Assembly: GCF_002024165.1 (NCBI RefSeq)
Contig: NZ_MWQN01000001.1
Location: forward strand, 6,262,001-6,326,000
DNA: 64,000 nucleotides
Direction of reading: 5' to 3'
DNA from: Embleya scabrispora
GTDB lineage: Bacteria; Actinomycetota; Actinomycetes; Streptomycetales; Streptomycetaceae
Part shown: positions 30,093-56,039 of the stretch, one piece after another
Layout of the letters: each line of letters starts with the position of its first letter
How positions within the stretch are numbered: the first letter of the stretch is position 1
The notes under the pieces: generated by a model
Seen by the model: only the letters and a program-made list of their open reading frames with translations
Told to the model about the DNA's origin: nothing
Database searches by the model: none
Program-made: the position numbers and the translations under genes

Positions 30093-30111
30093 GCCTCCGA
30101 AGGGCCTTGCC

Positions 30112-31194: not shown

Positions 31195-31787
31195 GTGAGC
31201 CGGCGAAGCTCCATGCCGCCGTCCGCGAGGCGATCATCGCCACGGTCGGCGAACTCGCCCTGCCGATCACGGCCTACGACACCTCCTGCCTCGTCCAGGC
31301 CGTGACCACCGCGATCGGCCGCCACTACCGACCCCCGGCCGAGACGGCTACGCCCGCCCCGGGAAAGGCCACGGGCAAGGTTCTCGGGCCGATCCCGCAC
31401 GGCACCGCCGCAGGCTACGGCCGAGAGGCATACCGCAAGCTCCCCCACTGCGACCCGTGCCGCAAGGCCATGGCCGCCGCCCAGGCCGAACGGCGCACCC
31501 GGCCACCCGAGGAACGCACCGGCCGCAAGGCCACCATGACCCTCGCGGAGATCGTCGCCGAGCGCACCACCCCCGAGGACGACCACCTCGTATGGGCGGG
31601 CGGCCAGGTGCGGTGGCAGGGGGAGAGGCTGACCGGCGCCCAGGCGGCCTGGAGCGTCCACCGCTCCCGGCCTTACGTCGGTTACATCCGGCGGACGTGC
31701 AAACGGTCCGACTGTGTGGCGCACCTAGCCGATCGGCGGGATCGGGAATTCGAGGACGCCGTCATGGGGACCGTTCATGCCGACTGA
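31191..31787 (+). CDS. Hypothetical protein (198 aa)
   Basis: ATG overlapping the RNA ligase stop. The middle has PHGTAAGYGREAYRKLPHCD and PCRKAMAAAQAERR, a pattern typical of phage-like HNH-adjacent or zinc-binding segments. The C-terminal third (DDHLVWAGGQVRWQGERLTG, then RSRPYVGYIRRTCKRSDCVA) resembles the beta-strand/CxxxxC part of phage HNH-associated proteins. No complete HNH motif visible. Function unknown. Confidence 0.5.
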   Translation: MSEPAKLHAAVREAIIATVGELALPITAYDTSCLVQAVTTAIGRHYRPPAETATPAPGKATGKVLGPIPHGTAAGYGREAYRKLPHCDPCRKAMAAAQAERRTRPPEERTGRKATMTLAEIVAERTTPEDDHLVWAGGQVRWQGERLTGAQAAWSVHRSRPYVGYIRRTCKRSDCVAHLADRRDREFEDAVMGTVHAD

Positions 31788-31974
31788 TCCGACAGCCGAA
31801 CTCAGGCAGGCCGCCCTTGAACTCGGCGCCGACGAACCCGTGGCACTCGCGATCGCGGCGTGGCTCGAAGGCGTGGCGGAACGCATGGGCGCGGGCGGCT
31901 GGGTCCTCCCGCCCGAACGCACCCACGCGCTCAAGATCGCCCGCGCCGTACTGCGCCGTTCCACTGCCTCCTGA
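31777..31974 (+). CDS. Small helical protein (65 aa)
   Basis: ATG overlaps the end of the previous gene by 11 bases. Helical with conserved-looking ALKIARAVLRR at the C-terminus. A hairpin follows the stop. Function unknown. Confidence 0.5.
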   Translation: MPTDPTAELRQAALELGADEPVALAIAAWLEGVAERMGAGGWVLPPERTHALKIARAVLRRSTAS

Positions 31975-31982
31975 CGCAACGG

Positions 31983-32009
31983 GGCCCGCCTCACTGGGGG
32001 AGACGGGCC
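31983..32009. terminator. Hairpin terminator-like element
   Basis: GGCCCGCCTC and GAGACGGGCC pair (one mismatch) with a short loop. Located 9 bases after a stop; no U-tract. It would separate the first RNA ligase part from the Thg1-Rnl1-Pnkp part unless it is only a processing or stability signal. Confidence 0.45.
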
Positions 32010-32060
32010 GCAACCACGTTACCCCGACTGCCGATCCCTTTGTCCCCTTTGGAGAAACCC

Positions 32061-32234
32061 GTGCTGCGCTTCGCACTCGGCGCCCTGGCCGGCACCCTGA
32101 CCGGCGCCATCGTCGTCCACGTCACCGACCGCCCCGCCCTCGCCGTCCTGGTGGGCCTCGGTGTGGCCTGCGTGATCTGGGCCTGGCGTCTGGTGATCGA
32201 CGCGATCGACGAGGTCCTGGACGTGCTGACGTGA
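32061..32234 (+). CDS. Small two-helix membrane protein (57 aa)
   Basis: GTG at 32061 with GGAGAAACCC upstream. Two hydrophobic segments (about residues 3-18 and 26-43). It overlaps the Thg1-like gene by GTGA, so it is translationally coupled to it. Function unknown. Confidence 0.55.
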   Translation: MLRFALGALAGTLTGAIVVHVTDRPALAVLVGLGVACVIWAWRLVIDAIDEVLDVLT

Positions 32235-33049
32235 GCGACAGCACCGCCCTGGGCGACCGCATGAAACGCCACGAGCAGGCCACCCGCACCGTCCTGCCGG
32301 CCCGCACATACACGGTGATCCGCGTCGACGGCCGCAGCTTCCACACCTACCTGCGTGGATGCACCAAACCGTTCGACGAGCGGTTCATGGCCGACATGGA
32401 CCTCGTCGCCGAGGCCCTGTGCGCGGAGATCTCCGGCACGGTTCTCGCCTACACGCAATCCGACGAAGTCTCGGTCCTGTGCACCGACTTCCAGGCGGCG
32501 GGCACGCAGCCCTGGTTCGGCGGAGTCGTCGCCAAGCAGACCTCCATCGCCGCCTCGGTGGCCACCGCCGCCCTCAACGCCGCCCGCCCCGGCAAACGAG
32601 CCCTCTTCGACGCCCGCGTGTTCACCCTGCCGAACCCGATCGAAGTCGCGAACTACCTGATCTGGCGCCAGCGCGACGCCGTCCGCAACAGCATCTCCAT
32701 GGCAGCCCAGGCCCACATCCCGCACAAACAACTCCACGGCGTCAACGCCAACCGCATGCAGGAAATTCTGTGGTCGAGGCACGGCATCAACTGGAACGAC
32801 TACCCCGACGGGGCCAAACGCGGCCGGCTGACCCGCCGCCACACGGGCGAACGCGAAGTCACCTGGACACACCGGCACACCGGCGAGACGCACACCGAGA
32901 CCGCGCTGCGTTCCCGGTGGGAGACCGCCGCCGCGCCGCACTTCACCACCGAGGCGGGCGGCTTCCTCGCCGAGGCCATCCCGCCCATTCCCCGGCTGAA
33001 CACCGATCAGGAGACCTCGCCGGACGACCGACCCAAGGAGAATCCGTGA
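32231..33049 (+). CDS. Thg1-like protein (tRNA-His guanylyltransferase family, 3'-5' RNA polymerase)
   Basis: 272 aa, GTG start. LGDRMKRHEQATRTVLPART followed by VIRVDGRSFHTYLRG (metal-binding Asp near 33) and VLAYTQSDEVSVL (second carboxylates near 77) are Thg1 hallmarks; WFGGVVAKQTSIAASVATAA follows as in the family. Bacterial Thg1-like proteins add nucleotides in the 3'-5' direction to repair truncated tRNA 5' ends. In this operon it is followed by an Rnl1-like ligase and Pnkp. Confidence 0.9.
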   Translation: MSDSTALGDRMKRHEQATRTVLPARTYTVIRVDGRSFHTYLRGCTKPFDERFMADMDLVAEALCAEISGTVLAYTQSDEVSVLCTDFQAAGTQPWFGGVVAKQTSIAASVATAALNAARPGKRALFDARVFTLPNPIEVANYLIWRQRDAVRNSISMAAQAHIPHKQLHGVNANRMQEILWSRHGINWNDYPDGAKRGRLTRRHTGEREVTWTHRHTGETHTETALRSRWETAAAPHFTTEAGGFLAEAIPPIPRLNTDQETSPDDRPKENP

Positions 33050-34272
33050 CGTCCCTCCACGGCGACGGGTTCCGGGCCGAAACACCACCGGCCCGCTACG
33101 ACGCCGGACCACCGGAAGGATGGTGGTACGGAACACGCTCCGTCCGAGGACCGCTGTGCCTGGCCGACCTGTTCCCGCTCGCGGACCTCGAAGCCGAGAT
33201 CGCGAGCGGCCACGTCACCCGCAAGCGACACCCCGAACTCCCGCTGTCCATCCACACCTACGCCCCCGCGTGCCAGTACGAGAACCACTGGAACCCGGTC
33301 ACGATGCGCTGCCGCGGGCTGGTAGCCGACGACAACGGGAGGATCGTTGCGCTGCCGTTCCCGAAGATCTTCCTGGCGTCCATGCACACCCAGGGCCACC
33401 CCTTCGCCCCGCCACTTCCCGCAGGGGCGCCGTTCGAGGTCTACGACAAGGTCGACGGCTCCCTCGGAATCGTGTTCCACTACGGCGGGCGCTGGCACGC
33501 CGCGACGAAGGGCTCGTTCTCCTCGGCGCAGGCCCTGTGGGCCCAGGCCCGCATCGACACGTCCGACACGGGGGACCTCGATCCCGCGGTGACGTACCTC
33601 GCCGAGATCGTCCACCCCGGAAACCGAATCGTCGTCGACTACGGCGAGTCCAAAGACCTCGTGCTGCTGGGCGCGTATCGCCCGTTCGACGGCACAGAAG
33701 TCGAACTTCGGGAAGTCGCACCGCACTGGTCGCGGATCGGCTCGGTCGTGCGCTCCTGGGGCAGCAGACAGTCCTTCGCCGCCCTTGACGGCCTGGAGGG
33801 GCTGGCCGCTGTGAACCACTCGATGGACGGCCGCCCCGTCTCGGGACTCGCAGCCGAGGGCTACGTCGTCCGCTTCGCGTCCGGACTCCGCGCGAAGATC
33901 AAATACGCGGACTACCTGACCCTGCACAAGCTCTACACCGGCACCAGCGAACGCACCGTATGGGAAGCCCTGGCCTCCGGCCGCGACATCGGCGAACTCT
34001 TCGACCGCATCCCCGACGAATTCCGCGACTGGGTCGACGACGTGGCGAACCGACTGACCGCCAGGGCCGACGCGTGGATCGCCAACGCCGTCGCGGCCCA
34101 CAAGGCCATCGGCACCTGCCCCGACCGTCGCACATTCGCCGAACGCGCCAAGGACTCGCCGTACCGCGCCGCGCTGTTCATGCTCCTCGACGGCCGCGAC
34201 ATCCGCCCACTCGCCTGGAAGCAGGTCCGCCCCGCCGGCCCCACCGCATTCACGACCTCGGACCAGGAGTGA
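33046..34272 (+). CDS. T4 Rnl1-like RNA ligase
   Basis: 408 aa, GTG overlapping the Thg1 stop. Motif I FEVYDKVDGSLGI (adenylated Lys near 135) is preceded by the conserved Arg-Gly in MRCRGLVAD. Motif IIIa YLAEIVHPGNRIVVDYG is near 185, motif IV EGYVVRF near 271, motif V AKIKYADYLTLHKLYTG near 284. A helical C-terminal domain follows, as in Rnl1. T4 Rnl1 seals tRNA cut in the anticodon loop by PrrC, working with Pnkp; Pnkp is the next gene here. Confidence 0.88.
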   Translation: MTSLHGDGFRAETPPARYDAGPPEGWWYGTRSVRGPLCLADLFPLADLEAEIASGHVTRKRHPELPLSIHTYAPACQYENHWNPVTMRCRGLVADDNGRIVALPFPKIFLASMHTQGHPFAPPLPAGAPFEVYDKVDGSLGIVFHYGGRWHAATKGSFSSAQALWAQARIDTSDTGDLDPAVTYLAEIVHPGNRIVVDYGESKDLVLLGAYRPFDGTEVELREVAPHWSRIGSVVRSWGSRQSFAALDGLEGLAAVNHSMDGRPVSGLAAEGYVVRFASGLRAKIKYADYLTLHKLYTGTSERTVWEALASGRDIGELFDRIPDEFRDWVDDVANRLTARADAWIANAVAAHKAIGTCPDRRTFAERAKDSPYRAALFMLLDGRDIRPLAWKQVRPAGPTAFTTSDQE

Positions 34273-34277
34273 CCACC

Positions 34278-35165
34278 ATGCCCACCGTTCACCTCACCAC
34301 GGGCCTGCCCGCCTCCGGCAAGACCGGCCTGGCCCGGGGCCTCGACGCGCTCCGGTTCAGCCTGGACGACTACCGGGCGATGATGCGCCGCGACAGGTCG
34401 ACCTGGAACGGCGACCTGGAGAAGATCGCCGTCGAGGCGATGATCCGCTCCGCGCACGCCGCCGTCGAAGGCGGCCGCGACATCGTCGTCGACAACACCC
34501 ACCTGACCGCGAACCTCCCCGGCAGATACAAGGACGCGTTCCCCACCGCGGTGTTCCGCGTGCACGACCTCATGGCCGTGCCCGTCGAGGAGTGCATCCG
34601 CCGCGACGCCGAACGCGAACAACCCGTCGGCGAGGACGTCATCCGCAACCTCCACGCCCGACACGTCAAGGCCACGCGCAACGGGTGGCGCCTGACCGAC
34701 GCGTGGATGAACGACCGCCACACACCCGATCCGTACATCCCCGACACCAGCCTGCCCACGGCGGTTCTGTGCGACATCGACGGAACCCTCGCCCTGAACG
34801 AGAGCGGACGGGGACCCTACGACTTCCACCGGTGCGGGGAGGACACCGTCAACCGGGCCGTTGCCGACGAACTTGCCCTGCACGACCGCGCCAACCACAT
34901 CATCGTCCTGCTCTCCGGCCGCGGCTCCGAGTACCGGCCCGAGACCGTCGCGTGGCTCGCAGCCCACGGCATCGCCTACGACGAACTGTGGATGCGCCCC
35001 CTGGGGGACTTCCGCCGCGACGACCTCGTCAAGGCCGAGCTGTTCGACAAGCACGTGCGCCACCGATTCGCCGTGCGCTTCACCCTCGACGACCGGGACC
35101 GCGTCGTGGCGCTGTGGCGCCGCATGGGAATCCCCACCTGGCAAGTCAACTACGGCGCGTTCTGA
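34278..35165 (+). CDS. pnkp: T4-type polynucleotide 5'-kinase/3'-phosphatase
   Basis: 295 aa. The N-terminal kinase has P-loop GLPASGKT (residues 9-16) and FSLDDYR carrying the catalytic Asp; VVDNTHLT and the lid region ECIRRDAEREQPVGEDVIRN... continue the kinase fold. The C-terminal HAD phosphatase has CDIDGTLAL (residues 164-172) with the nucleophilic Asp. It converts 2',3'-cyclic or 3'-phosphate and 5'-OH ends to 3'-OH and 5'-phosphate for ligation. Domain order is the same as in T4 Pnkp. Confidence 0.92.
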   Translation: MPTVHLTTGLPASGKTGLARGLDALRFSLDDYRAMMRRDRSTWNGDLEKIAVEAMIRSAHAAVEGGRDIVVDNTHLTANLPGRYKDAFPTAVFRVHDLMAVPVEECIRRDAEREQPVGEDVIRNLHARHVKATRNGWRLTDAWMNDRHTPDPYIPDTSLPTAVLCDIDGTLALNESGRGPYDFHRCGEDTVNRAVADELALHDRANHIIVLLSGRGSEYRPETVAWLAAHGIAYDELWMRPLGDFRRDDLVKAELFDKHVRHRFAVRFTLDDRDRVVALWRRMGIPTWQVNYGAF

Positions 35166-46791: not shown

Positions 46792-47165
46792 CCGGCGACC
46801 TGATGGTGTTCCTGACGGCGCGGCTGGACGAGCGAGAGCGCTGGGCTCGCGCGGCCATACCGGGCCCCTGGCACGCCGACGGCGGAAGCGTCTACACCAC
46901 CCACCCCACCGACGAAGTCACCGGTTACTGCGGCGGAAACGCCGACCACATCGCAGCCCACGACCCCGCGCGCGTCCTCCGCGACGTGGCAGCCCAGCGG
47001 GCGATCATCGGCTGGCACTTCGTTCAATACGACGTCCCAACAGACGGCACCTGGGTCCAGGTCTGCCGCTGTGGCTACGACGCGCCCTGCGCAACGCTTC
47101 GCCACCTGGCCGCCGTGTATGCCGACCACCCCGACTACCAGGGGGAGTGGCGCCCCACGGAGTGA
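46788..47165 (+). CDS. DUF6221-like protein (125 aa)
   Basis: GTG coupled start. LMVFLTARLDERERWARAAI then PGPWHADGG, ADHIAAHDPARVLRDVAAQR and LRHLAAVYADHPDYQGEWRP follows the DUF6221 pattern. Paralogue of the gene at 37890. Role unknown; frequent in Streptomyces mobile elements. Confidence 0.75.
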   Translation: MTGDLMVFLTARLDERERWARAAIPGPWHADGGSVYTTHPTDEVTGYCGGNADHIAAHDPARVLRDVAAQRAIIGWHFVQYDVPTDGTWVQVCRCGYDAPCATLRHLAAVYADHPDYQGEWRPTE

Positions 47166-47202
47166 CTGATCGTAACGAGCGCCGGCTTCTTTCGAGGGCA
47201 AG

Positions 47203-47241
47203 TGCAGCGTTGGTAACGCCCAGGGTGTTACCAACGCTGCA
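47203..47241. repeat. Perfect 15-bp stem inverted repeat
   Basis: From the T at 47203 to the A at 47241, arms GCAGCGTTGGTAAC and GTTACCAACGCTGC pair perfectly (plus outer T-A) around a 9-base loop. It lies 38 bases after a stop. The long perfect stem may be a terminator, but the GTTGGTAAC/GTTACCAAC core also fits a regulator operator. Confidence 0.6.
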
Positions 47242-47283
47242 TGTCCACGCATCCGTCCACGCCGGGCGATTGCGGAACGTGTC

Positions 47284-47311
47284 AAGCACCCCGCATTAAT
47301 GCGGGATGCTT
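47284..47311. repeat. 28-bp near-perfect palindrome
   Basis: Centre CCCGCATTAATGCGGG is perfect over 16 bp; outer AAGCA and TGCTT extend it to 28 bp with one mismatched pair. Located between the first inverted repeat and the gene at 47373. Possible operator, recombination site or processing hairpin. Confidence 0.55.
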
Positions 47312-47372
47312 GGGCCTGTCCGGCGGGAGCGGCCACCGTGGAGGCCGACACCCACCTGCCCAAGGAGAGCGA

Positions 47373-47819
47373 ATGACCGCCCCTGCCACTCGCTTCGGCG
47401 CCGTCGCAGCCATCCTGCTGGCCGCCCACCACGTCGGCGATTACTGGCTCCAGACCCATGGTCAGGCCCAGGCCAAGGGCAAGCCCGGTGCCGAGGGGCG
47501 CCGCGCGTGCGCCGCCCACGTCGCCACGTACACCCTCGGCCAGGCCGCCGCTCTGGCCGCCGCCGACCGCTACCTCGGCCTCGGCATCCGCCGTCGGCGC
47601 GCTGTGACCGGACTCGCCGTCTCGGCTGCGACGCACTACCTCGTGGACCGGCGGAGGCCCCTCGAGGCGATCGCCAACAGGCTCGGCAAGGGGAAGTTCT
47701 ACCGCGTCGGAGCGGGCCACGGCTGTCTCGGAACCGGCGCCGGCGCGATGGATCAGTCCTGGCATCTCGCCTGGTGCACTCTCGCCGCGGCCGTCGTTGC
47801 CGGGCCCGGACGCCGCTGA
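47373..47819 (+). CDS. DUF3307-like membrane protein (148 aa)
   Basis: ATG with AAGGAGAGCG upstream (strong SD). AAILLAAHHVGDYWLQTHGQ, then HVATYTLGQAAALAAADRYL and ATHYLVDRRRP follow the DUF3307 layout (H.lgDy.lQ; H...y; HyliD). About three hydrophobic segments. Function unknown; frequent in plasmids and phages. Confidence 0.65.
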   Translation: MTAPATRFGAVAAILLAAHHVGDYWLQTHGQAQAKGKPGAEGRRACAAHVATYTLGQAAALAAADRYLGLGIRRRRAVTGLAVSAATHYLVDRRRPLEAIANRLGKGKFYRVGAGHGCLGTGAGAMDQSWHLAWCTLAAAVVAGPGRR

Positions 47820-47843
47820 CCCTCTCACCCCCAAGGAGCAGAC

Positions 47844-48140
47844 ATGCACACCGACGACCCGCACACCCTGGGAGCACTCCGCCGGGCCATGGCCGCCTTG
47901 GCGAGCCTCCCGGACGACACTCCCGTGATCCTCGCCAAGGACAGTGAGGGGAACGGGTACAGCCCTTTCGCCGGGACCTCCGAAGGCATGTACTTCGCCG
48001 AAAGCTCCTACGCCGGCAGCCGGTACCTCACTGACGACGAACTCGCCGAGGAAATGGCGCAGCCCGGGAGCGGTTGGTCGGAGGACGACGGGGCACCCGA
48101 GGGGTCCGTTCTCGCCGTGTTCCTGACTCCGATCAACTGA
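47844..48140 (+). CDS. DUF6225-like protein (98 aa)
   Basis: ATG with AAGGAGCAG upstream. TLGALRRAMAALASLPDDTP then VILAKDSEGNGYSPF and a tail SVLAVFLTP. Resembles, from memory, a small actinobacterial family (LR.AL..LPDD.PV......D..GN..SPL). Function unknown. Confidence 0.6.
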   Translation: MHTDDPHTLGALRRAMAALASLPDDTPVILAKDSEGNGYSPFAGTSEGMYFAESSYAGSRYLTDDELAEEMAQPGSGWSEDDGAPEGSVLAVFLTPIN

Positions 48141-48188
48141 CGGCGTCGTGACCCCGGCGTTCCCTGCGGGCGCCGCGCCCGGTGGCGA

Positions 48189-48503
48189 GTGCCGGCCTGG
48201 CACCACACACTCGTGCTCATGGACTTCTCCGAGGTCGACGTCCTGATCGTTTTGGACGGGCTGGCCGTTGACGGCACGGCCGACATCCGGGACTGGTACC
48301 CGCCCGGTGCCGAACGTCCGCCGGGCGCACCGGAGCAGTGGTCCGCCTCGATCAGCTCCGAGTACCCCCTGACCGCCGTCGCCCCGGTCGGTGCGCACGG
48401 CGATCTCCACGTCGACGAGACCGGGGCACACGCCCGATTCGAGGTCGTCCAGGTCGCCGACTACACCGCCCAGGTGCTCGGCCGGGGCGACATCACCCCC
48501 TGA
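48189..48503 (+). CDS. Hypothetical protein (104 aa)
   Basis: GTG start; no strong SD. WHHTLVLMDFSEVDVLIVLD is beta-rich and the rest is Pro/Gly-rich and acidic. Last gene before the long non-coding stretch. Function unknown. Confidence 0.45.
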   Translation: MPAWHHTLVLMDFSEVDVLIVLDGLAVDGTADIRDWYPPGAERPPGAPEQWSASISSEYPLTAVAPVGAHGDLHVDETGAHARFEVVQVADYTAQVLGRGDITP

Positions 48504-48576
48504 TCGGCGCAGCTCCGGTCGGTTCGCGCGCTCTCGACGAACCTCGTTCCGAGGGTCTTCCGCAACCTCCTGCCCA

Positions 48577-48830
48577 ACCCCCTGCGGAACCCCTTCCGGA
48601 GGGGGTTCCGCAACCCCCTCCCGTGTTCGCCGTCCCGATCGGCCGCACCCACGCATCCGTTCCTGCGCCGGCCTCCGACTACCCAGGTCACAGGGTGTTC
48701 GGAGGGTTCGGTCCGAACGCTCCGAACCCTCCGAAGGAACCCCCTCCGCAACCCCCTCGGGAACCCCCTCCGGAAGGGGGTACGGAGGGGGTCAGGGGAG
48801 ACGCGCGTCTCCCCGTTCCCCGATCCCCGT
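48577..48830. repeat. Palindrome- and iteron-like repeat cluster
   Basis: The non-coding region 48504-49062 holds many copies of AACCCCCTCCGG-like units in both directions. Distinct palindromes: 48584-48611 (28 bases, one T-G pair), 48698-48735 (14-bp perfect arms TTCGGAGGGTTCGG), about 48761-48782 (AACCCCC/AGGGGGT type) and 48795-48814 (perfect 20-bp centred on ACGCGCGT). A reading frame of about 190 codons through it is low-complexity and not credible. It could be a replication origin, a transfer locus or a multi-site control region. The rest of the interval (48831-49062) shows nothing I can assign. Confidence 0.6.
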
Positions 48831-49062
48831 ACTCCGATCCCCGGGCCCCAGCCCCCGCCCCGCGCACGCACGCGAACCGGGCTGGTCATGTTGCGAGTTC
48901 GACGAACCGGCCGACGGAGGGGGAGGGGAAAACCGCGTGTCCGTCGGCTCGGCGTCGGGTTAGAGTGATGACGTCCAGGTGCGCAAGGCATCGGCTACTT
49001 CTTTGGGTGAAACTACGCCGACCGCCGTCTCCGATCTCTGGACCTCGACAACTTCATACGCA

Positions 49063-49197
49063 CCTCCCGGTGCGCAGACGACGGATACTTCAATCCAACG
49101 GTCGCGGGTTCGAGTCCCGTCCGGTTGCCCAGGTGGCCGGTAGCTCAGGTGGTAGAGCATTGGGCCCTTCCTCCGTCGCCGCTTCGACCTCGGGAGG
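49063..49197 (+). ncRNA. YrlA-like Y RNA 1 (circularly permuted tRNA mimic)
   Basis: Order: outer helix 49063-49070 with 49190-49197 (8 bp); inner helix 49079-49085 with 49172-49178 (7 bp); anticodon-like stem 49094-49098 with 49160-49164 (5 bp); 5-base variable loop 49099-49103; T-arm 49104-49120 (loop TTCGAGT); acceptor 3' strand 49121-49127; closing loop CCCAGG; acceptor 5' strand 49134-49140 (7 of 7 paired, three wobbles); U8-A9; D-arm 49143-49158 (GCTC/GAGC). A full tRNA fold in permuted order, on a bulged stem. Bacterial YrlA RNAs, partners of Ro60/Rsr, have a tRNA-like module; a TROVE gene follows. Ends estimated from pairing. Confidence 0.8.
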
Positions 49198-49200
49198 ACA

Positions 49201-49354
49201 GCGTCGGGGGTGCCCGGTGCGCAGGCCGGGAGTTCTTCCGCTGATAACGGGGAGGTCCCGGGTTCGAATCCCGGCGGACGCGACGTCGTCTGTAGCTCAG
49301 TGGCCGAGAGCGCCTTGAAAGCCCAGCCGCCTCGATCTCGGGCACCCACCACGC
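49201..49354 (+). ncRNA. YrlA-like Y RNA 2 (circularly permuted tRNA mimic)
   Basis: Same design as the preceding element. Outer helix 49201-49217 with 49338-49354 (about 16 bp with single-base bulges at 49205 and 49348); inner helix 49221-49230 with 49322-49330 (one A-C mismatch, one bulge); anticodon-like stem 49248-49252 with 49313-49317 (5 bp); variable loop 49253-49257; T-arm 49258-49274 (loop TTCGAAT); acceptor 3' strand 49275-49281 with 5' strand 49286-49292 (6 of 7); D-arm 49295-49311 (GCTC/GAGC). Shares CCCGGTGCGCAG and CGC[TC]TCGA[CT]CTCGGG with element 1. Ends 34 bases before the TROVE start. Confidence 0.82.
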
Positions 49355-49388
49355 CGATCCTTCCCCCACCCGCTTGGGGACCGCCACC

Positions 49389-51074
49389 ATGAGCCGCTTC
49401 AACACTCGTTCCGCACGCCCTACCGTCTTCTCGCCCGTGACCACCACTGGGCGCACCACGACGAACCACCAGGGCACCGTTGGCCACCTGCGCGACGCGC
49501 GCAGCGAGCTGTTCCTGCTTGCCGTTGCCAACTTCGTTGGCACGGATACGTTCTACGAGGCTGGCGGCGAGCGCGACGACCGCTACACCGCGCTCGTGCG
49601 CACCGTCGCCGTCGAAGACCCGGCGTGGATGGTCGAGTTCGTGCGGTGGCTCCGCCACGAGGCGAACATGCGCAGTGCCGCGCTGGTTGCTGCGGCCGAG
49701 ACCGTCAAGGGCCGCCTCGACGCCGGCCTGGACCGTGTCCCCACCACGTCGGTACGCACCGCCACCATGTCCGAGGTCGGCGCCCGCACACTGACGGTGA
49801 CGGGCGGCACGGGGTATTCGCGCAAGGTCGTGGACGCGGCACTCGCTCGCGCGGACGAGCCGGGGGAACTCCTGGGCTACTGGACCGCGCGCTACGGCCG
49901 TGCCGTACCCAAGCCGATCAAGCGCGGCATCGCCGACGCGGTCCGCCGCCTGTACAACGAGCGCTCACTGCTCAAGTACGACACCGCCTCAAAGGGCTAT
50001 CGCTTCGGTGACGTCATCGAACTCGTTCACCCGGCACCCGAAGCAACGTGGCAGGGGGAGTTGTTCAAGCACGCCATCGACCGACGCCACAACCGCGACG
50101 AGGTCATCCCCGACGGCCTTTCGGTACTCCAGGCGGCGAAGACCTTGTCCCACCTGCCGGTCGCGGATCGGCGCGCCTACGTCCTGAACCCGTCGCTGGT
50201 CGCCTCCCCGGGTGGCCTGGCCGGCGCGGGATTCACCTGGGAGCGGCTGGCCGGCTGGTTGCAGGGGCCGATGGACGCAGCGGCATGGGCGGCGATCGTC
50301 CCGTCGATGGGCTACATGGCGCTGCTGCGGAACCTGCGCAACCTCGACGAGGCCGGAGTACCCGACGACGTTGCCGAGCGCGTGGCGGCCCGCCTGGCGG
50401 ATCCCGAAGAGGTCGCCCGATCCGGGCAGTTCCCGTTCCGCTTCTACGCCGCGCACAAGGCGGTGCAGTCGCTGCGCTGGGGCCACGCCCTGGAGAAGGC
50501 GCTGCGGGCCTCCCTGGCGAACGTGCCCGCCCTGCCCGGACGCACCCTCGTTCTGGTGGACCAGTCGCCGTCGATGTTCCCCGGCTATCCCTTCTCGACG
50601 GCGAACACGAGCGACATTACGCTCGCCGACAAGGCGAAGCTGTTCGGTTCGGCGCTGGCGCTGCGCGCGGCCGACGCCGACCTGGTCGGCTACGGAATCG
50701 CGAACTACACCGTGCCGTTCCACCGGAGCGACGCCGTCCTGACCGCCATGGGTCGCTTCCACATGGAGGACGGCACCGACACCCCGGCCGCCATCCGCGA
50801 CCACTACAAGAACCACGACCGCGTCGTCATCGTGACCGACGAGCAGACCGGCAACATGTGGACGCGGACCGGGCTCACGGTCGACTCGACCGTGCCTGCC
50901 AACGTCCCCGTCTACACCTGGAACCTGGCCGGCTACCGGACCGGGCACGCCCCCTCGGGGGCGGCGAACCGGCACACCTTCGGCGGCCTGACCGACGCGG
51001 CCTTCCGGATGATTCCGCTCCTGGAGTCCGGCCGAAGCGCGACCTGGCCATGGGAGCAGCGCGCGGCGGCGTGA
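49389..51074 (+). CDS. rsr: TROVE-domain protein (Ro60/Rsr)
   Basis: 561 aa, ATG with CTTGGGGA upstream. The TROVE HEAT-like ring starts near residue 30 (HLRDARSELFLLAVANFVGT, then FVRWLRHEANMRSAALVAAA, LGYWTARYGRAVPKPIKRGI and SLLKYDTASKGYRFGDVIEL, all Ro60 hallmarks). The C-terminal vWA has GRTLVLVDQSPSMF (MIDAS near 391) and VVIVTDEQT. Ro60 binds misfolded RNA ends in its ring and Y RNAs on its outer face. The two Y-like RNAs immediately upstream fit this. Confidence 0.93.
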   Translation: MSRFNTRSARPTVFSPVTTTGRTTTNHQGTVGHLRDARSELFLLAVANFVGTDTFYEAGGERDDRYTALVRTVAVEDPAWMVEFVRWLRHEANMRSAALVAAAETVKGRLDAGLDRVPTTSVRTATMSEVGARTLTVTGGTGYSRKVVDAALARADEPGELLGYWTARYGRAVPKPIKRGIADAVRRLYNERSLLKYDTASKGYRFGDVIELVHPAPEATWQGELFKHAIDRRHNRDEVIPDGLSVLQAAKTLSHLPVADRRAYVLNPSLVASPGGLAGAGFTWERLAGWLQGPMDAAAWAAIVPSMGYMALLRNLRNLDEAGVPDDVAERVAARLADPEEVARSGQFPFRFYAAHKAVQSLRWGHALEKALRASLANVPALPGRTLVLVDQSPSMFPGYPFSTANTSDITLADKAKLFGSALALRAADADLVGYGIANYTVPFHRSDAVLTAMGRFHMEDGTDTPAAIRDHYKNHDRVVIVTDEQTGNMWTRTGLTVDSTVPANVPVYTWNLAGYRTGHAPSGAANRHTFGGLTDAAFRMIPLLESGRSATWPWEQRAAA

Positions 51075-51173
51075 TCGCGCTGGGTGGGTGGATCTTGGAT
51101 TCTGCCCACCCCGCCGGCACCATGGCATGCCCGTGTCGCGAGCACGCGCAGCCCGATCGGCGAAGGAGCCACC

Positions 51174-51500
51174 ATGGCGGAGCTGTCAGGCAGGTACACC
51201 GGAGTCCTCGTTCCCGGCGGCGACAACTACACGATCGCGCACACCGCCGAGGTGGGTCTGGACGCCATGGACCTCGCCGCGATCGACGATCTTCACGCGC
51301 GTATCCGCGACCAGGTCCCGTGGTTCGAAGTCCCGGTGCTGTCCGGCCGTCACTTCGGGCGTGCCCTCGGCCCTGCCGGTGATGCACAGCTCTACGTCAT
51401 CTCCGACGAGCCCCTGACCGACGAACAGAACGCCGTCCTCGACCGGTTCGCTCAGACCGGCGAGTGGCCGTGGTTCAAGCGCGAGCACGCGGATTCCTGA
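51174..51500 (+). CDS. Hypothetical protein (108 aa)
   Basis: ATG with GCGAAGGAGCC upstream (SD). A mixed alpha/beta protein (GRYTGVLVPGGDNYTIAHTA, then PLTDEQNAVLDRFAQTGEWP). The first gene after TROVE; possible accessory but no family recognised. Confidence 0.55.
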   Translation: MAELSGRYTGVLVPGGDNYTIAHTAEVGLDAMDLAAIDDLHARIRDQVPWFEVPVLSGRHFGRALGPAGDAQLYVISDEPLTDEQNAVLDRFAQTGEWPWFKREHADS

Positions 51501-51564
51501 CAGACGACTTGCGGGCGACCGCGAGTGAACATAGTCTCTGCTCTACTGGTGATCTTGCACTCAC

Positions 51565-51589
51565 GGGCCGTCCGCAAGGGCGGCCCTTT
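51565..51589 (+). terminator. Intrinsic-type terminator
   Basis: GGGCCG and CGGCCC pair (6 bp) with a 10-base loop, followed by TTT. It lies 65 bases after the stop at 51500. The interval 51501-51564 contains AT-richer DNA (around AACATAGTCTC) that may hold a promoter for a short transcript. Confidence 0.5.
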
Positions 51590-51610
51590 CGCATGTCCGG
51601 GGGTGAACTC

Positions 51611-51832
51611 GTGTCCCTGGAGCAGTACCTCGTCGACGACAAGGCCGCTGCGGCCTGGACCGGCCGGCCTGCGTCGACCATCCGCCGCTGGGGCCTCGAA
51701 GGCCGCATCGCCAAACACGGGAACGGACGCGGAGCCGTCCGATACGACCTTCGCGAACTGCAACCCTGGAGCCCCGCTAACGGGCCCATGAAGGCCCCGC
51801 CACTGCCCGACCACTTCACCGCCGCGGCGTGA
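51611..51832 (+). CDS. MerR/excisionase-like HTH protein (73 aa)
   Basis: GTG at 51611 with GGGGGTG 7 bases upstream (an ATG at 51593 is an alternative). SLEQYLVDDKAAAAWTGRPA followed by STIRRWGLEGRIAKHGNGRG and VRYDLRELQPW fits the small winged HTH of MerR/Xis-like DNA-binding proteins. Probably regulatory. Confidence 0.6.
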   Translation: MSLEQYLVDDKAAAAWTGRPASTIRRWGLEGRIAKHGNGRGAVRYDLRELQPWSPANGPMKAPPLPDHFTAAA

Positions 51833-51972
51833 CCGCAGCCCCTCGAACCCGGCGCCTCGTACACCCACCGAGGCGGGGCGCCGGCCGATCTCGTGGGTGG
51901 GCGTCCGCGCTCCCGACCTGGAGGCTGTGGCGGCCCGGGTACGTGTCGAGCCGCGCCCGCCCACGAGTTCAC

Positions 51973-52524
51973 CTACTGGCCGGGTTGGACGACCGGCTGT
52001 AGGTTGTCGTGCTCGTCCGTCCGCCACTGCCTGCCCGCGCGGTCCGTGAACGTCACCGTGGGGCGGGAGTTCTCCAGCGTTGCGGTGCTGAGCCGGGAGG
52101 ATTCCAACAGCGCCTTGCGGCCGGGCCCCAGGACCGCCACGGGAGATCCGGAGCGGACGGCCGTGCCCCCGTCGGGCGGGAATACCACAGCGTCCGAGAC
52201 GACGTAGCTCTCTCCGAAGCGGGCATCCAAGTCGGTGATCGGCTCGCTGCTCGCGTTCGTCACCTGGACTATCCACGCGTCGTCGACGATCCGACAGGCG
52301 ACCGAGATGCGCAGTGCCTGGGCGCTGCGCCGATCCTCGGCGTCCTCGATGAGTGCGGACCGTTGAAGTGCGAGCACTTCGGACTGGTCCTGAATGAACT
52401 GCTGTTGAGCGGCGATCTGTCGGCGCTGACTGCGGAGCGTCCAGAACGCGGCCCAGGCCGCGAGCGATGCGCCGATGGCGCCGATCCATGTGGGTGCATC
52501 GCCCCACTCGATGTCGTTGATCAT
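51973..52524 (-). CDS. Single-pass membrane protein (183 aa)
   Basis: ATG at 52524. One hydrophobic segment near residues 10-30 (WIGAIGASLAAWAAFWTL) is followed by a coiled coil (RSQRRQIAAQQQFIQDQSEV) and a beta-rich domain (AWIVQVTNASSEPITDLDAR). Resembles a common Streptomyces hypothetical in which a membrane anchor carries an Ig-like domain. Function unknown. Confidence 0.65.
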   Translation of the reverse strand: MINDIEWGDAPTWIGAIGASLAAWAAFWTLRSQRRQIAAQQQFIQDQSEVLALQRSALIEDAEDRRSAQALRISVACRIVDDAWIVQVTNASSEPITDLDARFGESYVVSDAVVFPPDGGTAVRSGSPVAVLGPGRKALLESSRLSTATLENSRPTVTFTDRAGRQWRTDEHDNLQPVVQPGQ

Positions 52525-52572
52525 CGGCGCAGCGTAGGGCCGTCCCGCCCACCCGTGGGGGTGTTTGGGGAT

Positions 52573-52848
52573 TCAGTCGCCGCGGGTTCCCCAGGGGCGG
52601 CCCCCGCCGGTTCCCGCGCCCGGTCGGTTGGCGATGTATTCCTCGATCGTGGAGGGGTACCAGCAGGGCCGGGTGCCGAGTACGGCGTCCGGCTCGGGTA
52701 GGACTCCGGGGACCTGGGGGGAGCCCGGCGCGATGCCGTGTTCCCGCCGGTAGACCTTTGCCCGGTTGTGATACACAAGCACGGTGCGGGGTCCCACCCC
52801 GAGGCGGCGCGCCACGGCCGCCACGTCCAACAGTTGCTCGGTCGACAC
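52573..52848 (-). CDS. MerR-like HTH protein (91 aa)
   Basis: GTG at 52848 with GGAGGGG about 4 bases upstream. LLDVAAVARRLGVGPRTVLV followed by YHNRAKVYRREHGIAPG is a small HTH domain. Directly upstream of its start lies TAACCTTG-N15-CAAGGTTA, also found at the DUF932 promoter, so it may autoregulate and control both. Inferred from position. Confidence 0.6.
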   Translation of the reverse strand: MSTEQLLDVAAVARRLGVGPRTVLVYHNRAKVYRREHGIAPGSPQVPGVLPEPDAVLGTRPCWYPSTIEEYIANRPGAGTGGGRPWGTRGD

Positions 52849-52858
52849 GACCCCTCCG

Positions 52859-52889
52859 TAACCTTGACTCACGTGGTGCGACAAGGTTA
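52859..52889. promoter_or_regulatory. Shared operator, copy A
   Basis: TAACCTTG (52859-52866), a 15-base spacer and CAAGGTTA (52882-52889). The same half-sites and spacing occur at 54236-54266. Located 10 bases before the start of the MerR-like HTH gene. Confidence 0.65.
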
Positions 52890-52921
52890 TGGGGGGCGGA
52901 GTCCGCTCGAGAGTCGAACCC

Positions 52922-53152
52922 CTATTCGTCGTCGAGGCTTTCCCGGTACAGCCGCTGCGCCTCGGCCTCGGCGTCCTCGGGGTCGGACGCGTGGACGGTC
53001 TCCGCCCAGCGGTACCAGCCGTCTGCGCAGGGGTCGGAATCGACGACGGCCGTGTCGACCTTGATCACGGCCGAGACGACGAGTCTGCCGCCGCACTCCT
53101 CGGTCAGGCCGGTGACCAGGTATTCGGTCATGCCGCAGTTGTCACACGCCAT
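52922..53152 (-). CDS. Small zinc-motif protein (76 aa)
   Basis: MACDNCGMTEYLVTGLTEEC contains CxxC plus a further Cys, a partial zinc ribbon. Acidic helix at the C-terminus. ATG at 53152 with GAGGAAGC upstream. Follows the DUF932 gene in the same direction, possibly cotranscribed. Function unknown. Confidence 0.6.
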   Translation of the reverse strand: MACDNCGMTEYLVTGLTEECGGRLVVSAVIKVDTAVVDSDPCADGWYRWAETVHASDPEDAEAEAQRLYRESLDDE

Positions 53153-53207
53153 GCTTCCTCCTCGGGGGAACGGGCCGGCGCCCGCAGGGCAGGCGCCGGC
53201 GAGGACT

Positions 53208-54236
53208 TCAGACCCGCAGCGCCTCGAAGGCGCGGGACTTGATCTTGTTGACGGTCGGGCTGGTGACGGTGCGGACCGCGCGGGCGTCGGCGGCGAAGTC
53301 CTCGCCGCGCGTCTTGCCCCCGCTTACCGCCGCGTGGTGGTCCAGGTACTCGGTCACGGCCTGGTAGCCGGCCCAGCGGGTCCCCTCGATCCCCGCCATG
53401 GTCGGGGCGGTCAGCAGCGCGCCGAGCGCGCCGACGACCCCCGCGTGGTGGCGCAGCCGGCGCGGCGTCCGCACCGTCGGCTCGGGAAACAGGTCGGCGA
53501 CGATCGAGTCGAACTCGGCGCGGCGCAACTCGGTTTCGATCATCCGCTGCGCCTCGGCCTCGAACGCGTCCACCCATGCCCAGGTCAATCCGAGCGCCTG
53601 CCGGGCCTCGGCGATGTGCCCCCGGGCGCCGGACGTGTGACGGATCGCGAACGTCGAATGGGCGTTGCGCAGCGCGGCGGCCTGCGTGTTGGCGCAGACG
53701 ATCCGGGTCGGGGTGACGATCAGGCGGAACGCCGACGATCCGTCGTGCGAGTTGAGTGCCGCGATGAACAGGTCGACGTCGTCCCCGCCGCCCAGGCGCA
53801 GCGTGCGGGGCAGGCGCATGGTGACGAAGACCTGCCGGCCGTCGTGCAGGCTGCCGGCGGTCTCGAAGTGGGCGCCGGCCTCGTCGACGAGGGTGTTCAG
53901 CAGGTCGGCGTGCGCCTCGTTCTGGACGGGGTGGTAGTCGTTGCCGACGATGCCCAGGACGTCGGGGCGGCCCGTGAACGGGTGGGTGCGGACGGTGGCG
54001 TACCGGTCCGGGACGCGCAGGCGGGTGACGCCGTCGTCGCCGAGAACGGCGCAGTCGACGGGGACGGTGTGCACGTTCCAGTTGCCCAGGTGGGCGAGGC
54101 GCATGGCGTCCTCGGCGGTGAACGTGTCGGTGGTGACGGTGCCCAGGCGGTGCCACGCGTCCTGTCGGGCGGTGACGAACGCCGCGCATCCGGTGGCCTT
54201 GTCGATCTCGATTCCGTGCACGGTCCGAACCCCCAT
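53208..54236 (-). CDS. DUF932 protein (phage/plasmid-like)
   Basis: 342 aa. AAFVTARQDAWHRLGTVTTD; YATVRTHPFTGRPDVLGIVG; YHPVQNEAHADLLNTLVDEA; GRQVFVTMRLPRTLRLGGGD; SHDGSSAFRLIVTPTRIVCA and NTQAAALRNAHSTFAIRHTS follow the DUF932/phage-plasmid-like family order. Function unsettled; very common on actinophages and plasmids. The start codon overlaps operator copy B. Confidence 0.88.
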   Translation of the reverse strand: MGVRTVHGIEIDKATGCAAFVTARQDAWHRLGTVTTDTFTAEDAMRLAHLGNWNVHTVPVDCAVLGDDGVTRLRVPDRYATVRTHPFTGRPDVLGIVGNDYHPVQNEAHADLLNTLVDEAGAHFETAGSLHDGRQVFVTMRLPRTLRLGGGDDVDLFIAALNSHDGSSAFRLIVTPTRIVCANTQAAALRNAHSTFAIRHTSGARGHIAEARQALGLTWAWVDAFEAEAQRMIETELRRAEFDSIVADLFPEPTVRTPRRLRHHAGVVGALGALLTAPTMAGIEGTRWAGYQAVTEYLDHHAAVSGGKTRGEDFAADARAVRTVTSPTVNKIKSRAFEALRV

Positions 54237-54266
54237 AACCTTGTATTAGGAAGTGATACAAGGTTA
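54236..54266. promoter_or_regulatory. Shared operator, copy B
   Basis: TAACCTTG (54236-54243), a 15-base spacer and CAAGGTTA (54259-54266); the inner bases extend the dyad (CCTTGTAT and ATACAAGG). It overlaps the DUF932 ATG, so the DUF932 message may be leaderless and directly blocked by a bound regulator. Confidence 0.65.
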
Positions 54267-54357
54267 CCCTGCGGGGCCGACAAATCCCAGCTCTGAGCAG
54301 CGAGTTCACCGAAAAATCGCCCCGGAACCCGGGCCGCGCGCACCGACGGAGGGCCCC

Positions 54358-54759
54358 ATGGCCAACGCGATCTACCCCTCGGGCAAGCAGGGGTTCCTGT
54401 CCGACCTCGACCTCACCACCGCCACCCTCAAAGTCGTCCTGGTCGACACCGCCGCCTACACCTACAGCGCGAACCACTCCAACCTCTCGGACATCCCCGC
54501 CCCGGCGCGCGTGGCCACCTCCGGTGCCCTCGCCTCCAAGACCGTCACCGGCGGAGTCTTCGACGCGGCGGACCTGACCATCCCAGGGTTCACCGGCCCC
54601 ACCGTCGAAGCCCTCGTGATCTACAAGGACACCGGCACCGCGTCCACGTCCACGCTGATCGCCTACATCGACACCGGCGGCAACCTGCCCTACCAGCCGA
54701 ACACGGCACAGGTCGACATCGCCTGGGACAACACGGCCACCAAGATCCTCGCTCTGTAG
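54358..54759 (+). CDS. Phage structural-type protein (133 aa)
   Basis: MANAIYPSGKQGFLSDLDLT, then LKVVLVDTAAYTYSANHSNL, SDIPAPARVATSGALASKTV, VEALVIYKDTGTASTSTLIA and YIDTGGNLP matches, from memory, a small beta-rich protein found next to tail and head-fibre genes in many actinophages. Likely a virion appendage or tail-fibre component. ATG with CGGAGGGCCCC upstream. Marks the beginning of a late-gene-like region. Confidence 0.7.
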   Translation: MANAIYPSGKQGFLSDLDLTTATLKVVLVDTAAYTYSANHSNLSDIPAPARVATSGALASKTVTGGVFDAADLTIPGFTGPTVEALVIYKDTGTASTSTLIAYIDTGGNLPYQPNTAQVDIAWDNTATKILAL

Positions 54760-54787
54760 CCCCCGACTCCGCCGAGGGTGACCCACC

Positions 54788-55726
54788 GTGACCGACTTCC
54801 GCATCTGGCCCAACACGGACGGTCGGACCGAGAGCAGCACCGAAGAAACACCCGTCTCCCTCGGCACCGAGTTCGTGCTCTCGGCGACCGGTTGGGCGAA
54901 GGCGTTGCACTACTGGCGCGCCACCGAGGCGGAACTCGGCACCGTCACCGGCGCCATCTACGCCGTCGACACCGACGCCGAGATCGACGGGACCGCCGTC
55001 ACCTTCGTCGTCTCCGGCGTCGGATGGCAGACCTACACCCTGGCCGCGCCGGTCCGCCTCGAGGCGGACACCCGCTACGTCGTGTCGGTCCACCACCCGA
55101 ATCGCTACGCCATGGGCCTCGGCGCGTACTTCTCAGCCGGGCCCGGCGCAGCGGGCATCACCAACGGCATCATCACGGCACCACCGACCTCGGCGGTCAC
55201 CTCACCCAACGGACAGGGCCGTTACGAGTACGGGCCCACCCGCGTCGCCCCCCGCCAAACGTTCAACGCGAACGCCTACCTGTCGGACGTCACCGTCGGC
55301 GACACCGACCCGGGCGGCACTGTGCTCACCCCCGTGGGGATCCCCGGAACCGCCACCGTCGGCACCCCCACACTCACCCCCGACCCCGTCACCCTCACTC
55401 CCCAGGGCATCGACGGCACCTCGACCGTCGGCCTACCCACCCTGGCACCGAGGCCCGTCACCCTTGCCCCCCAGGGCATCGCATCCGGGGCAATCATCGG
55501 CGAACCGACCCTGACAGCGACGGCGACCCTGACCCCCCAAGGCATCGGCTCCACCTCCACCGTCGGCACGCCCGGCCTCACCCCGGGCACCGTCGTCCTG
55601 CGGCCCGTCGGCATCCCGAGCACCGCCAGGGTCGGCGAACCCGTGATCCGTCTCCCCGGCGACCACAGCCACGACATCAGCCTGGGCGCGCTCACCGACC
55701 CGTGGACCCTCGGCGCCCTCGCATGA
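54788..55726 (+). CDS. DUF4082-like appendage protein with sequence repeats (312 aa)
   Basis: The N-terminal 180 residues (EFVLSATGWAKALHYWRATE; VSGVGWQTYTLAAPVRLEAD; TRYVVSVHHPNRYA) fit the DUF4082 beta-sandwich often found on surface and tail-fibre proteins. From about residue 180 a unit of about 22-23 residues (LTPQGIDGTSTVGLPTLAP and variants) is repeated five or six times. Likely a tail-fibre or adhesin stalk. GTG start. Confidence 0.65.
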   Translation: MTDFRIWPNTDGRTESSTEETPVSLGTEFVLSATGWAKALHYWRATEAELGTVTGAIYAVDTDAEIDGTAVTFVVSGVGWQTYTLAAPVRLEADTRYVVSVHHPNRYAMGLGAYFSAGPGAAGITNGIITAPPTSAVTSPNGQGRYEYGPTRVAPRQTFNANAYLSDVTVGDTDPGGTVLTPVGIPGTATVGTPTLTPDPVTLTPQGIDGTSTVGLPTLAPRPVTLAPQGIASGAIIGEPTLTATATLTPQGIGSTSTVGTPGLTPGTVVLRPVGIPSTARVGEPVIRLPGDHSHDISLGALTDPWTLGALA

Positions 55727-55736
55727 GAGGCACCCC

Positions 55737-56039
55737 GTGATCACTCTCGTCGAAGTCCGCCGCAACCGCCTCACCCGCAAACACCTCGCCGTGCCCGTCG
55801 CCCGCGCCGGTGCCGCCCCGGACCCGGCCTGGGGCGTCGAGTTCGCATTCGTCGACCGCGACACACGCCCCGGCGACGCCGACTGGATCACGGGGGAGTG
55901 GGACGGACCCCGCGCCCAGATCCTCGTCGGCCCCGGCGGCACCGCAACCCCCGCCGTCGGCATCCACACCGTCTGGCTGCGCATCACCGCCGCACCCGAA
56001 CTCGTCGTCGAACCCGTCGGCATCCTCGACATCACCTGA
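55737..56039 (+). CDS. Beta-rich structural-like protein (100 aa)
   Basis: GTG start 10 bases after the previous stop. VRRNRLTRKHLAVPVARAGA, then PGDADWITGEWDGPRAQILV and HTVWLRITAAPE give an Ig-like beta pattern common in small tail-appendage proteins of actinophages. Function inferred from its position next to the appendage gene. Confidence 0.6.
   Translation: MITLVEVRRNRLTRKHLAVPVARAGAAPDPAWGVEFAFVDRDTRPGDADWITGEWDGPRAQILVGPGGTATPAVGIHTVWLRITAAPELVVEPVGILDIT

Follow-up and report, generated by a model that had tools for sequence, protein, structure and literature searches.

A likely array of three Y RNAs, two with circularly permuted tRNA modules, in the leader of a TROVE gene of Embleya scabrispora

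Organization of the locus

The window, a stretch of 64,000 nt from contig NZ_MWQN01000001.1 of the actinomycete Embleya scabrispora, carries a gene for a TROVE (Ro60/Rsr-like) protein that is preceded on the same strand by three structured RNA units, two of which contain the parts of a tRNA in permuted order (Table 1). The TROVE gene product matches the RNA-binding protein family PHROG 850 over residues 23–562 (E 5.8e-42), and its sole PDB matches (phmmer, E 0.01) are the solved TROVE-domain proteins 9kop and 9l5y (E 3.8e-26), which are possible templates for the RNA-binding surface of TROVE. The region 47096–55876 is 100% identical to part of the 97,860-base IMG/VR contig 2857776322_000004, which is probably this same genome, and phage-type matches (exonuclease, resolvase, methyltransferase, excisionase and minor tail protein) were obtained among the selected ORFs of the window that were scanned; both observations support the placement of the locus on a mobile element in an earlier note on this DNA. 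The element is a predicted provirus. Approximately 14–19 kb upstream of the array, on the same element, two RNA ligase genes and a polynucleotide kinase-phosphatase gene lie close together (29857–35165), a set resembling those for tRNA repair. The start assigned to the second ligase ORF is perhaps placed too early, and the 3' end of this ORF runs into the following one. PADLOC returned no match for the TROVE protein, the PF09414 RNA ligase, the kinase or DUF7873, a protein discussed below.

A candidate -10 element of the form TANNNT was placed such that transcription would start at about unit 1. In 104 of 139 leaders of related TROVE genes, compared with 20 of 556 control windows, a TANNNT motif begins 12–32 nt ahead of the first unit; counted likewise, TAGAGT in the window starts 11 nt before 48972, the first base of the outer stem. 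An AT-rich block resembling TTAATTCGCTCGC, located ~45 nt upstream of the first unit and ~33 nt before the -10 element, was seen by eye in many of 40 leaders viewed (e.g., L037, L154, L183 and L115) and is a possible operator.

Table 1. Features of the TROVE locus and of the RNA-repair genes on the same element (window positions).
Feature	Position	Strand	Basis or remarks
RNA ligase	29857–31194	+	PF09414 E 1e-17; phrog_968 RNA ligase
RNA ligase, tail-fibre-attachment-catalyst kind	32359–34272	+	phrog_562 E 3.1e-52, residues 282–625
Polynucleotide kinase-phosphatase	33960–35165	+	PF25109 E 1.1e-46; AAA_33 E 1.4e-12; phrog_505
Candidate -10 element TAGAGT	48961–48966	+	TANNNT; placed for a start at about unit 1
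Unit 1, compact Y RNA-like hairpin, no tRNA module	48972–49044	+	outer stem GTCCAG/CTGGAC; frame GGTGCG..GATCT as in units 2 and 3
Unit 2 (contains element 1)	49063–49197	+	outer stem CCTCCCG/CGGGAGG; RF02553 48.1 bits; row 1 of 44-unit alignment; minimum-energy fold is the permuted tRNA
Element 1, T arm to 5' anticodon-stem strand	49104–49164	+	sequence; scanner match at 49104
Unit 3 (contains element 2)	49210–49345	+	outer stem GTGCCCG/CGGGCAC; RF02553 30.1 bits; row 2 of 44-unit alignment
Element 2, T arm to 5' anticodon-stem strand	49258–49317	+	sequence; scanner matches at 49258
TROVE (Ro60/Rsr-like) gene	49389–51074	+	likely start ATG 49389 (MSRFN...); PF05731 E 4.5e-16

Permuted tRNA modules and the extent of the units

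In both elements the T arm and the 3' acceptor strand precede the 5' acceptor strand and the D arm, the order by which a tRNA-mimic Y RNA is recognized. Direct reading of element 1 gives a T arm at 49104–49120 with the fully paired stem GCGGG/CCCGT (5/5), followed by the 3' acceptor strand CCGGTTG (49121–49127), which pairs at all seven positions, three of them G-U, with the 5' strand TGGCCGG (49134–49140) across a loop of 6 nt (49128–49133). The dinucleotide TA then leads to the D arm GCTC..GAGC (49143–49158, stem 4/4) and to an anticodon stem paired 5/5 (5' strand 49160–49164), with a variable loop of 5. Element 2 follows the same plan, with a T arm at 49258–49274 (stem 5/5), an acceptor stem formed by CGGACGC (49275–49281) and TCGTCTG (49286–49292) that pairs 6/7 across a 4-nt loop (49282–49285), a D arm at 49295–49311 (stem 4/4), and an anticodon stem paired 5/5 (5' strand 49313–49317). 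The elements were also sought with a module scanner requiring a T arm, a 7-nt acceptor stem with at least six pairs of which at least four are Watson-Crick, TA or TG, and a D stem. The scanner returned exactly elements 1 and 2 on the window's + strand, no module on its - strand, and none in 150 first-order Markov simulations of the + strand; the setting of at least four Watson-Crick pairs was chosen post hoc to let in element 1, after a run requiring at least five had recovered element 2 alone and had given no match in 40 simulated windows. The earlier note had described two circularly permuted tRNA-like elements within 49063–49354, with these same pairings in the acceptor, anticodon and T stems and the same variable loop in element 1, with acceptor stems closed by loops of 4 to 6 bases, and with a long helix in place of the anticodon loop; direct reading and the scanner bear out the elements themselves, the pairings and loops are as described, and the helix is seen in both tRNA-type units.

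The full units extend beyond these modules. Their frame emerged when element 1 was compared with element 2 and both with another TROVE locus in this genome: the repeat CCCGGTGCGCAG lies 5' of each element, TCGATCT or TCGACCT lies 3' of each, and complementary 7-mers flank the whole, so that units 2 and 3 have the extents given in Table 1. The earlier note was thus right about the tRNA modules but had drawn the ends too short, as the units close with an outer 7-bp stem. All three units share one plan, in which a conserved internal loop lies between an outer stem and an inner helix, the loop consisting of GGUGCGCA on the 5' side and GAUCU or GACCU on the 3' side (at the DNA level, GGTGCGCAG with GATCT or GACCT).

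The Rfam YrlA model (RF02553) matches 49078–49182 (48.1 bits, E 1.7e-8) and 49237–49333 (30.1 bits, E 0.0027), so that the covariance-model check suggested in the earlier note finds both elements, at scores under the gathering score of 69 bits. The best RF02553 score among 20 related loci, 56.2 bits, is also below this value, and the window's RNAs therefore fall outside RF02553 as curated and within the wider Y RNA kind only. Folding energy was dropped as evidence, with z-scores against shuffles of -0.91, -0.26 and -0.28 for units 1 to 3. The minimum-energy fold of unit 2 is the permuted tRNA, and that of unit 3 alone differs from it; because single-sequence energies are near those of shuffled sequences and unit 3 folds otherwise, the support for the fold is comparative. 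ARAGORN called a canonical tRNA-Ile(GAT) at 49210–49282, sharing the T arm of element 2. This call was judged spurious because such calls recur: in 39 of 147 leaders there are 44 that overlap a scanned unit, with 17 different anticodons; the Rfam model RF00005 gives 25.3 bits, against a cut-off of 29. With overlaps in so many leaders, public annotations may contain false tRNAs at Y RNA units.

Covariation across related units

An alignment of 44 tRNA-type units was assembled from the window's two and 42 of the first 45 listed, out of 81 distinct units of this type; those left out were two repeats of the window units and, for no recorded reason, L064:7390–7533. Pairing is retained in 95.8% of cells, compared with 74.0% after shuffling and 33.7–45.4% when the strands are slid, and changes on both sides occur at 24 of 35 pairs. 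Helices 1 and 2, which form a conserved basal helix, are paired in 96.1% and 96.4% of cells, and the anticodon stem is the weakest helix at 88.8%. Helix 1 is not an independent test because the rows were chosen by an outer-stem criterion, and the D stem is invariant and therefore proves nothing on covariation. RNAalifold applied to the same 44 units recovered the T, D, acceptor and basal helices but not the anticodon stem. The unit ends in this alignment are long paired basal helices, not the halves of an anticodon loop.

Two further sets were taken in ways that do not presuppose the stem under test. For the outer stem, 295 distinct units were collected by their core motifs alone, of which 230 have all seven outer pairs, with 37 distinct stems, and the remaining 65 have fewer; the three freest outer positions are Watson-Crick in fractions of 0.80, 0.88 and 0.91 of these units, against 0.38, 0.40 and 0.40 when shuffled. 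For the acceptor, 168 distinct modules were picked by their T-loop and D-arm anchors, with no requirement for acceptor pairing. The acceptor sequence is highly variable among units, yet it is 90.8% paired in these modules (shuffled mean 54.3%, maximum 58.7%), the T stem is 99.5% paired (86.3% shuffled), and the anticodon stem 74.3% (51.1% shuffled). The earlier note had proposed that uncompensated, stem-breaking substitutions at homologous loci would tell against the structure; the stems are mostly kept by compensation.

Arrays in the leaders of related TROVE genes

TROVE (PF05731) was found in 26 of 61 genomes, the window's own included. Scanning of 30 TROVE loci gave 42 units in 24 leaders, and inspection by eye reveals a compact unit in three of the other six (L015, L017 and L019). 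A DNA pattern for the RNA core matched 60 viral stretches and at least 119 genome stretches, the latter being actinobacterial by title among the matches listed (80), and a TROVE profile derived from the 30 TROVE loci was used to search the neighbourhoods of these motif loci. Of the viral motif loci, 46 are followed by a TROVE gene within 1 kb and three by one at 1–3 kb; in one the gene is upstream, five more are cut off by the end of the sequence, and five have no TROVE gene. At the 119 genome motif loci, among the matches listed, the gene lies within 1 kb downstream in 91, 10 are cut off by the sequence end and 18 have none. This preference of an RNA-only motif for positions upstream of TROVE, together with the Rfam matches and the covarying fold, supports the view of the earlier note that YrlA-like mimics occupy the TROVE leader. 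Core motifs with no TROVE gene within reach, several of them in complete units, may be orphan Y RNAs or remnants. Among these 23 loci (5 viral, 18 genome; L042, L076, L089, L094, L098, L123, L139, L144, L150, L152, L160, L162, L166, L167, L171, L181, L182, L186, L188, L191, L193, L205 and L214), no neighbouring gene was common to more than two.

Unit numbers were counted in 147 distinct leaders, all having 620 nt or more of sequence before the TROVE match. Of these, 121 were chosen by the RNA motif among the matches listed, a choice that favours units, and 26 by TROVE; four of the 30 TROVE loci (L014, L015, L017 and L019) failed this filter. No unit was found in 7 leaders, one in 22, two in 66, three in 41, four in 10 and six in one, whereas the 26 TROVE-selected leaders have no unit in 3, one in 10, two in 9, three in 3 and four in one, or at least two in 13. 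Leaders without a unit thus make up 4 of the 121 motif-selected and 3 of the 26 TROVE-selected sets by the strict scanner, and the counts are low rather than high because this scanner misses visible units (e.g., in L011 and L024). The statement of the earlier note that two such RNAs head to tail are unusual does not hold, as the window leader itself has three units and two to six are found in 118 of the 147 leaders. The commonest orders are compact-tRNA (45 leaders) and tRNA-compact-tRNA (25), with the window's compact-tRNA-tRNA in 7. Outer stems differ by position, GTGCCCG being commonest nearest the gene, CCTCCCG next and CGTCCAG third, and the presence of a tRNA head is independent of the outer stem: units second from the gene that have the CCTCCCG stem are compact in 68 cases and tRNA-type in 15. 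The second TROVE gene of the same genome (L003/L010, C1:684–686 kb) has its own array, of one compact unit and one unit with a tRNA module.

Permuted tRNA modules behind DUF7873 genes

The YrlA model also matches the same genome at C1:1245 kb (38.7 bits), on the same contig and 5 Mb from the window, where a DUF7873 gene is followed by two permuted tRNA modules in an RNA of ~330 nt (L002:1500–2566, C1:1245.5–1246.5 kb). RNAs of this length with two permuted modules were seen directly after DUF7873 genes of actinomycetes and diverse phages (L218–L247, L248–L315 and L316–L318), the phages being as distant from one another as those of Gordonia, Arthrobacter and Klebsiella; most of these RNAs have no neighbouring TROVE gene. 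DUF7873 was found in 57 of 120 genomes, this one included, and in 20 of the 26 TROVE-positive genomes; it occurs in 6 of 296 genomes of a phylum sample, all six from the window's own family, and among 14 control genomes in Deinobacterium chartae only. The scanner found at least one module at 29 of the best-scoring 30 bacterial DUF7873 loci and two at 22. Among 68 viral DUF7873 loci, 65 have 600 nt downstream, and a module lies between -100 and +500 of the stop codon in 55 of these (50 of 57 when counted by distinct downstream sequence). Altogether these downstream regions hold 95 modules in 39,000 nt, compared with 5 in 384,311 nt of the same strand elsewhere in the viral loci and one on the other strand.

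An anchor-only test on 99 regions gave 119 distinct DUF7873 modules from 75 of them, the other 24 yielding none with the anchor. The acceptor is 99.3% paired in these modules (shuffled mean 60.7%, maximum 64.8%), and pairs 7/7 in 117, with 84 distinct helices. N-CCA follows the acceptor strand, as it would at the end of a processed tRNA, in 55 of the 119, versus 22 of the 168 TROVE modules. RNAalifold, run on 26 of the 49 sequences with both modules in place, predicted 54 pairs, 39 of them with compensatory change, and recovered both modules. A coding role for the downstream region was considered, and one- and two-base indels seen by eye in the alignment speak against it. Rfam searches of seven DUF7873 loci and L002 gave only YrlA and tmRNA matches, all below the cut-offs. 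The phage GodonK, Arthrobacter phage Mimi and Klebsiella phage KpLz-2_45 each have two modules behind the DUF7873 gene, where their annotations mark no RNA; GodonK and the contig of L276 are probably the same phage. Within a few kb, a TROVE gene accompanies 1 of the 68 viral DUF7873 loci, and on one viral contig (L096:1688–5328) the two systems are neighbours, a TROVE gene being followed by Y RNA-type units, with a DUF7873 gene in the same stretch. The DUF7873 protein has no significant match among solved proteins (best E 0.039), and no paper naming it was found in the literature searched.

The structure of the DUF7873 RNA is well supported. On balance we lean slightly toward the view that these permuted tRNA mimics form a second system, one that works without Ro60; DUF7873 would be the likely protein partner, and cleavage at the acceptor loop might split the RNA into several pieces whose ends could be charged, although the partnership, the cutting and the charging are guesses. 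Permuted tRNA mimicry would then not be confined to Ro60 Y RNAs, and this RNA would be a more novel lead than the TROVE array. If confirmed, a tRNA mimic without Ro60 offers another route to the purpose of such mimics.

Proposed function and alternatives

The best reading of the locus is that three Y RNAs are encoded in tandem in the 5' leader of their partner TROVE gene, an assignment in which we have considerable confidence; by analogy with studied systems, the TROVE protein very probably binds the array. Judging from the sequence, the array probably belongs to one processed transcript, which would begin at a single promoter at unit 1 and run on into the TROVE gene; a single promoter is suggested because the spacers between the units, 18 and 12 nt, leave scant room for separate ones. 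The RNAs would then be cut apart, with each outer stem marking the ends of one unit. As in the systems studied, the TROVE ring would bind the basal helix and internal loop, and the tRNA module may be read by tRNA-modifying enzymes and may tether PNPase (RYPER) or occupy tRNA-acting factors; the compact unit would be a Y RNA without the tRNA head. Tethering of PNPase here, suggested by analogy, has an even chance in our estimate. The likeliest purpose would be the handling of broken or structured RNA, tRNA above all, in stress or phage-host conflict, because RNA ligases and a polynucleotide kinase are encoded upstream on the element. For a link to tRNA damage we see the arguments as equally balanced, and such a role would be indirect, since the relevant text of PMC7790460 describes that YrlA fragments were not seen in Salmonella under conditions that cut tRNA.

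Alternatively, the permuted modules may be decoys that occupy tRNA-attacking nucleases or tRNA-acting host factors, several units providing several decoys, with PNPase uninvolved. The tRNA-like acceptor and T arms with their very variable acceptor sequences, the RNA-repair genes on the same element, and the location of the TROVE genes of phages Atuin and BRock inside tRNA gene clusters are consistent with this, and a role as competitive inhibitor has been proposed by others for YrlA (PMC7790460). However, these modules have a helix in place of the anticodon loop that is usually targeted, and the compact units are left without a role; decoys are a rather unlikely explanation. Still less probable is a purely cis-regulatory leader, in which the hairpins control the TROVE mRNA, for example because the TROVE protein binds the leader of its own message, with free Y RNAs arising as a by-product. 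The array does stand directly before the gene in what appears to be one transcript, but this explains neither the tRNA shape nor the units with no TROVE gene within reach, and the number and order of units vary; regulation in cis could nevertheless be added to the reading as a Y RNA array.

That the modules are true permuted tRNA genes, processed to working tRNAs, is very improbable: most tRNA parts are present and permuted tRNA genes are known elsewhere (PMC3978253), but the long paired basal helices at the unit ends mean that joining cannot restore an anticodon loop, and N-CCA is scarce after the acceptor strand of TROVE modules. Decayed tRNA genes, or pieces of them left behind by integration, for which the tRNA-Ile call in unit 3 might be cited, are the least likely reading, given compensatory change in the acceptor, T, basal and outer stems and the many anticodons among unit-overlapping calls.

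With the Y RNA array as the preferred reading, the full unit of these actinobacterial Y RNAs can be defined as an outer stem, an internal loop, an inner helix and an optional tRNA head, and many of the leaders studied contain arrays whose several units differ in their outer stems. Because a single leader has units with and without the head, the role of the head is directly testable.

Comparison with known systems

The 2014 work of Chen et al. reportedly describes Y RNAs near Ro60 genes in more than 250 species and phages, with at least one per species said to be tRNA-like. The window's units are of the same kind as those bacterial Y RNAs, M. smegmatis included. Prokaryotic Y RNAs, again including those of M. 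smegmatis, for which Chen et al. 2014 is cited, are bound through the lower stem (PMC4726728), and mycobacterial TROVE genes were likely acquired from a phage (PMC8628891). A survey of jumbo phages describes TROVE as an RNA-repair platform with a tRNA-like partner (PMC7824862). No title on actinobacterial Y RNA arrays was found in the literature on bacterial Y RNAs that was searched, a scope outside which the main papers fell.

The shape of the two-piece tmRNA and of permuted tRNA genes is likewise that of a circularly permuted tRNA (PMC3978253); unlike these, the ends of the window's units join into no anticodon loop, and an unsystematic look at the units noticed no tag frame or splicing motif. 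A close likeness is to YrlA (RF02553), in which a permuted tRNA module sits on a basal helix and the RNA adjoins an rsr/TROVE gene. The Salmonella YrlA structure (PDB 6CU1) superposes on tRNA with a circular permutation (PMC11472068), and YrlA is modular, is modified by DusA and TruB, with dihydrouridine and pseudouridine in the D and T loops, and links Rsr to PNPase (PMC8394870). The window's RNAs differ in that their basal part departs from the Rfam consensus, giving scores below the cut-off, and in that such units precede the gene, with as many as six to an array.

Y RNAs and RNA-repair enzymes that occur together with a Ro60-like protein also recall the Salmonella rsr-yrlBA-rtcBA operon, an RNA-repair operon with a Ro60-like protein and two Y RNAs (PMC7790460, PMC9879122) that is induced by tRNA fragments (PMC7790460). 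The repair enzymes and the gene order are different: in Salmonella the RNAs follow rsr and sit with RtcB and RtcA, whereas here they precede the TROVE gene, and the RNA ligases and polynucleotide kinase, as identified among the selected ORFs scanned, are encoded at a distance from them. The kind of RNA is a known one, and the window's array is larger, and less unusual in being tandem, than first described.
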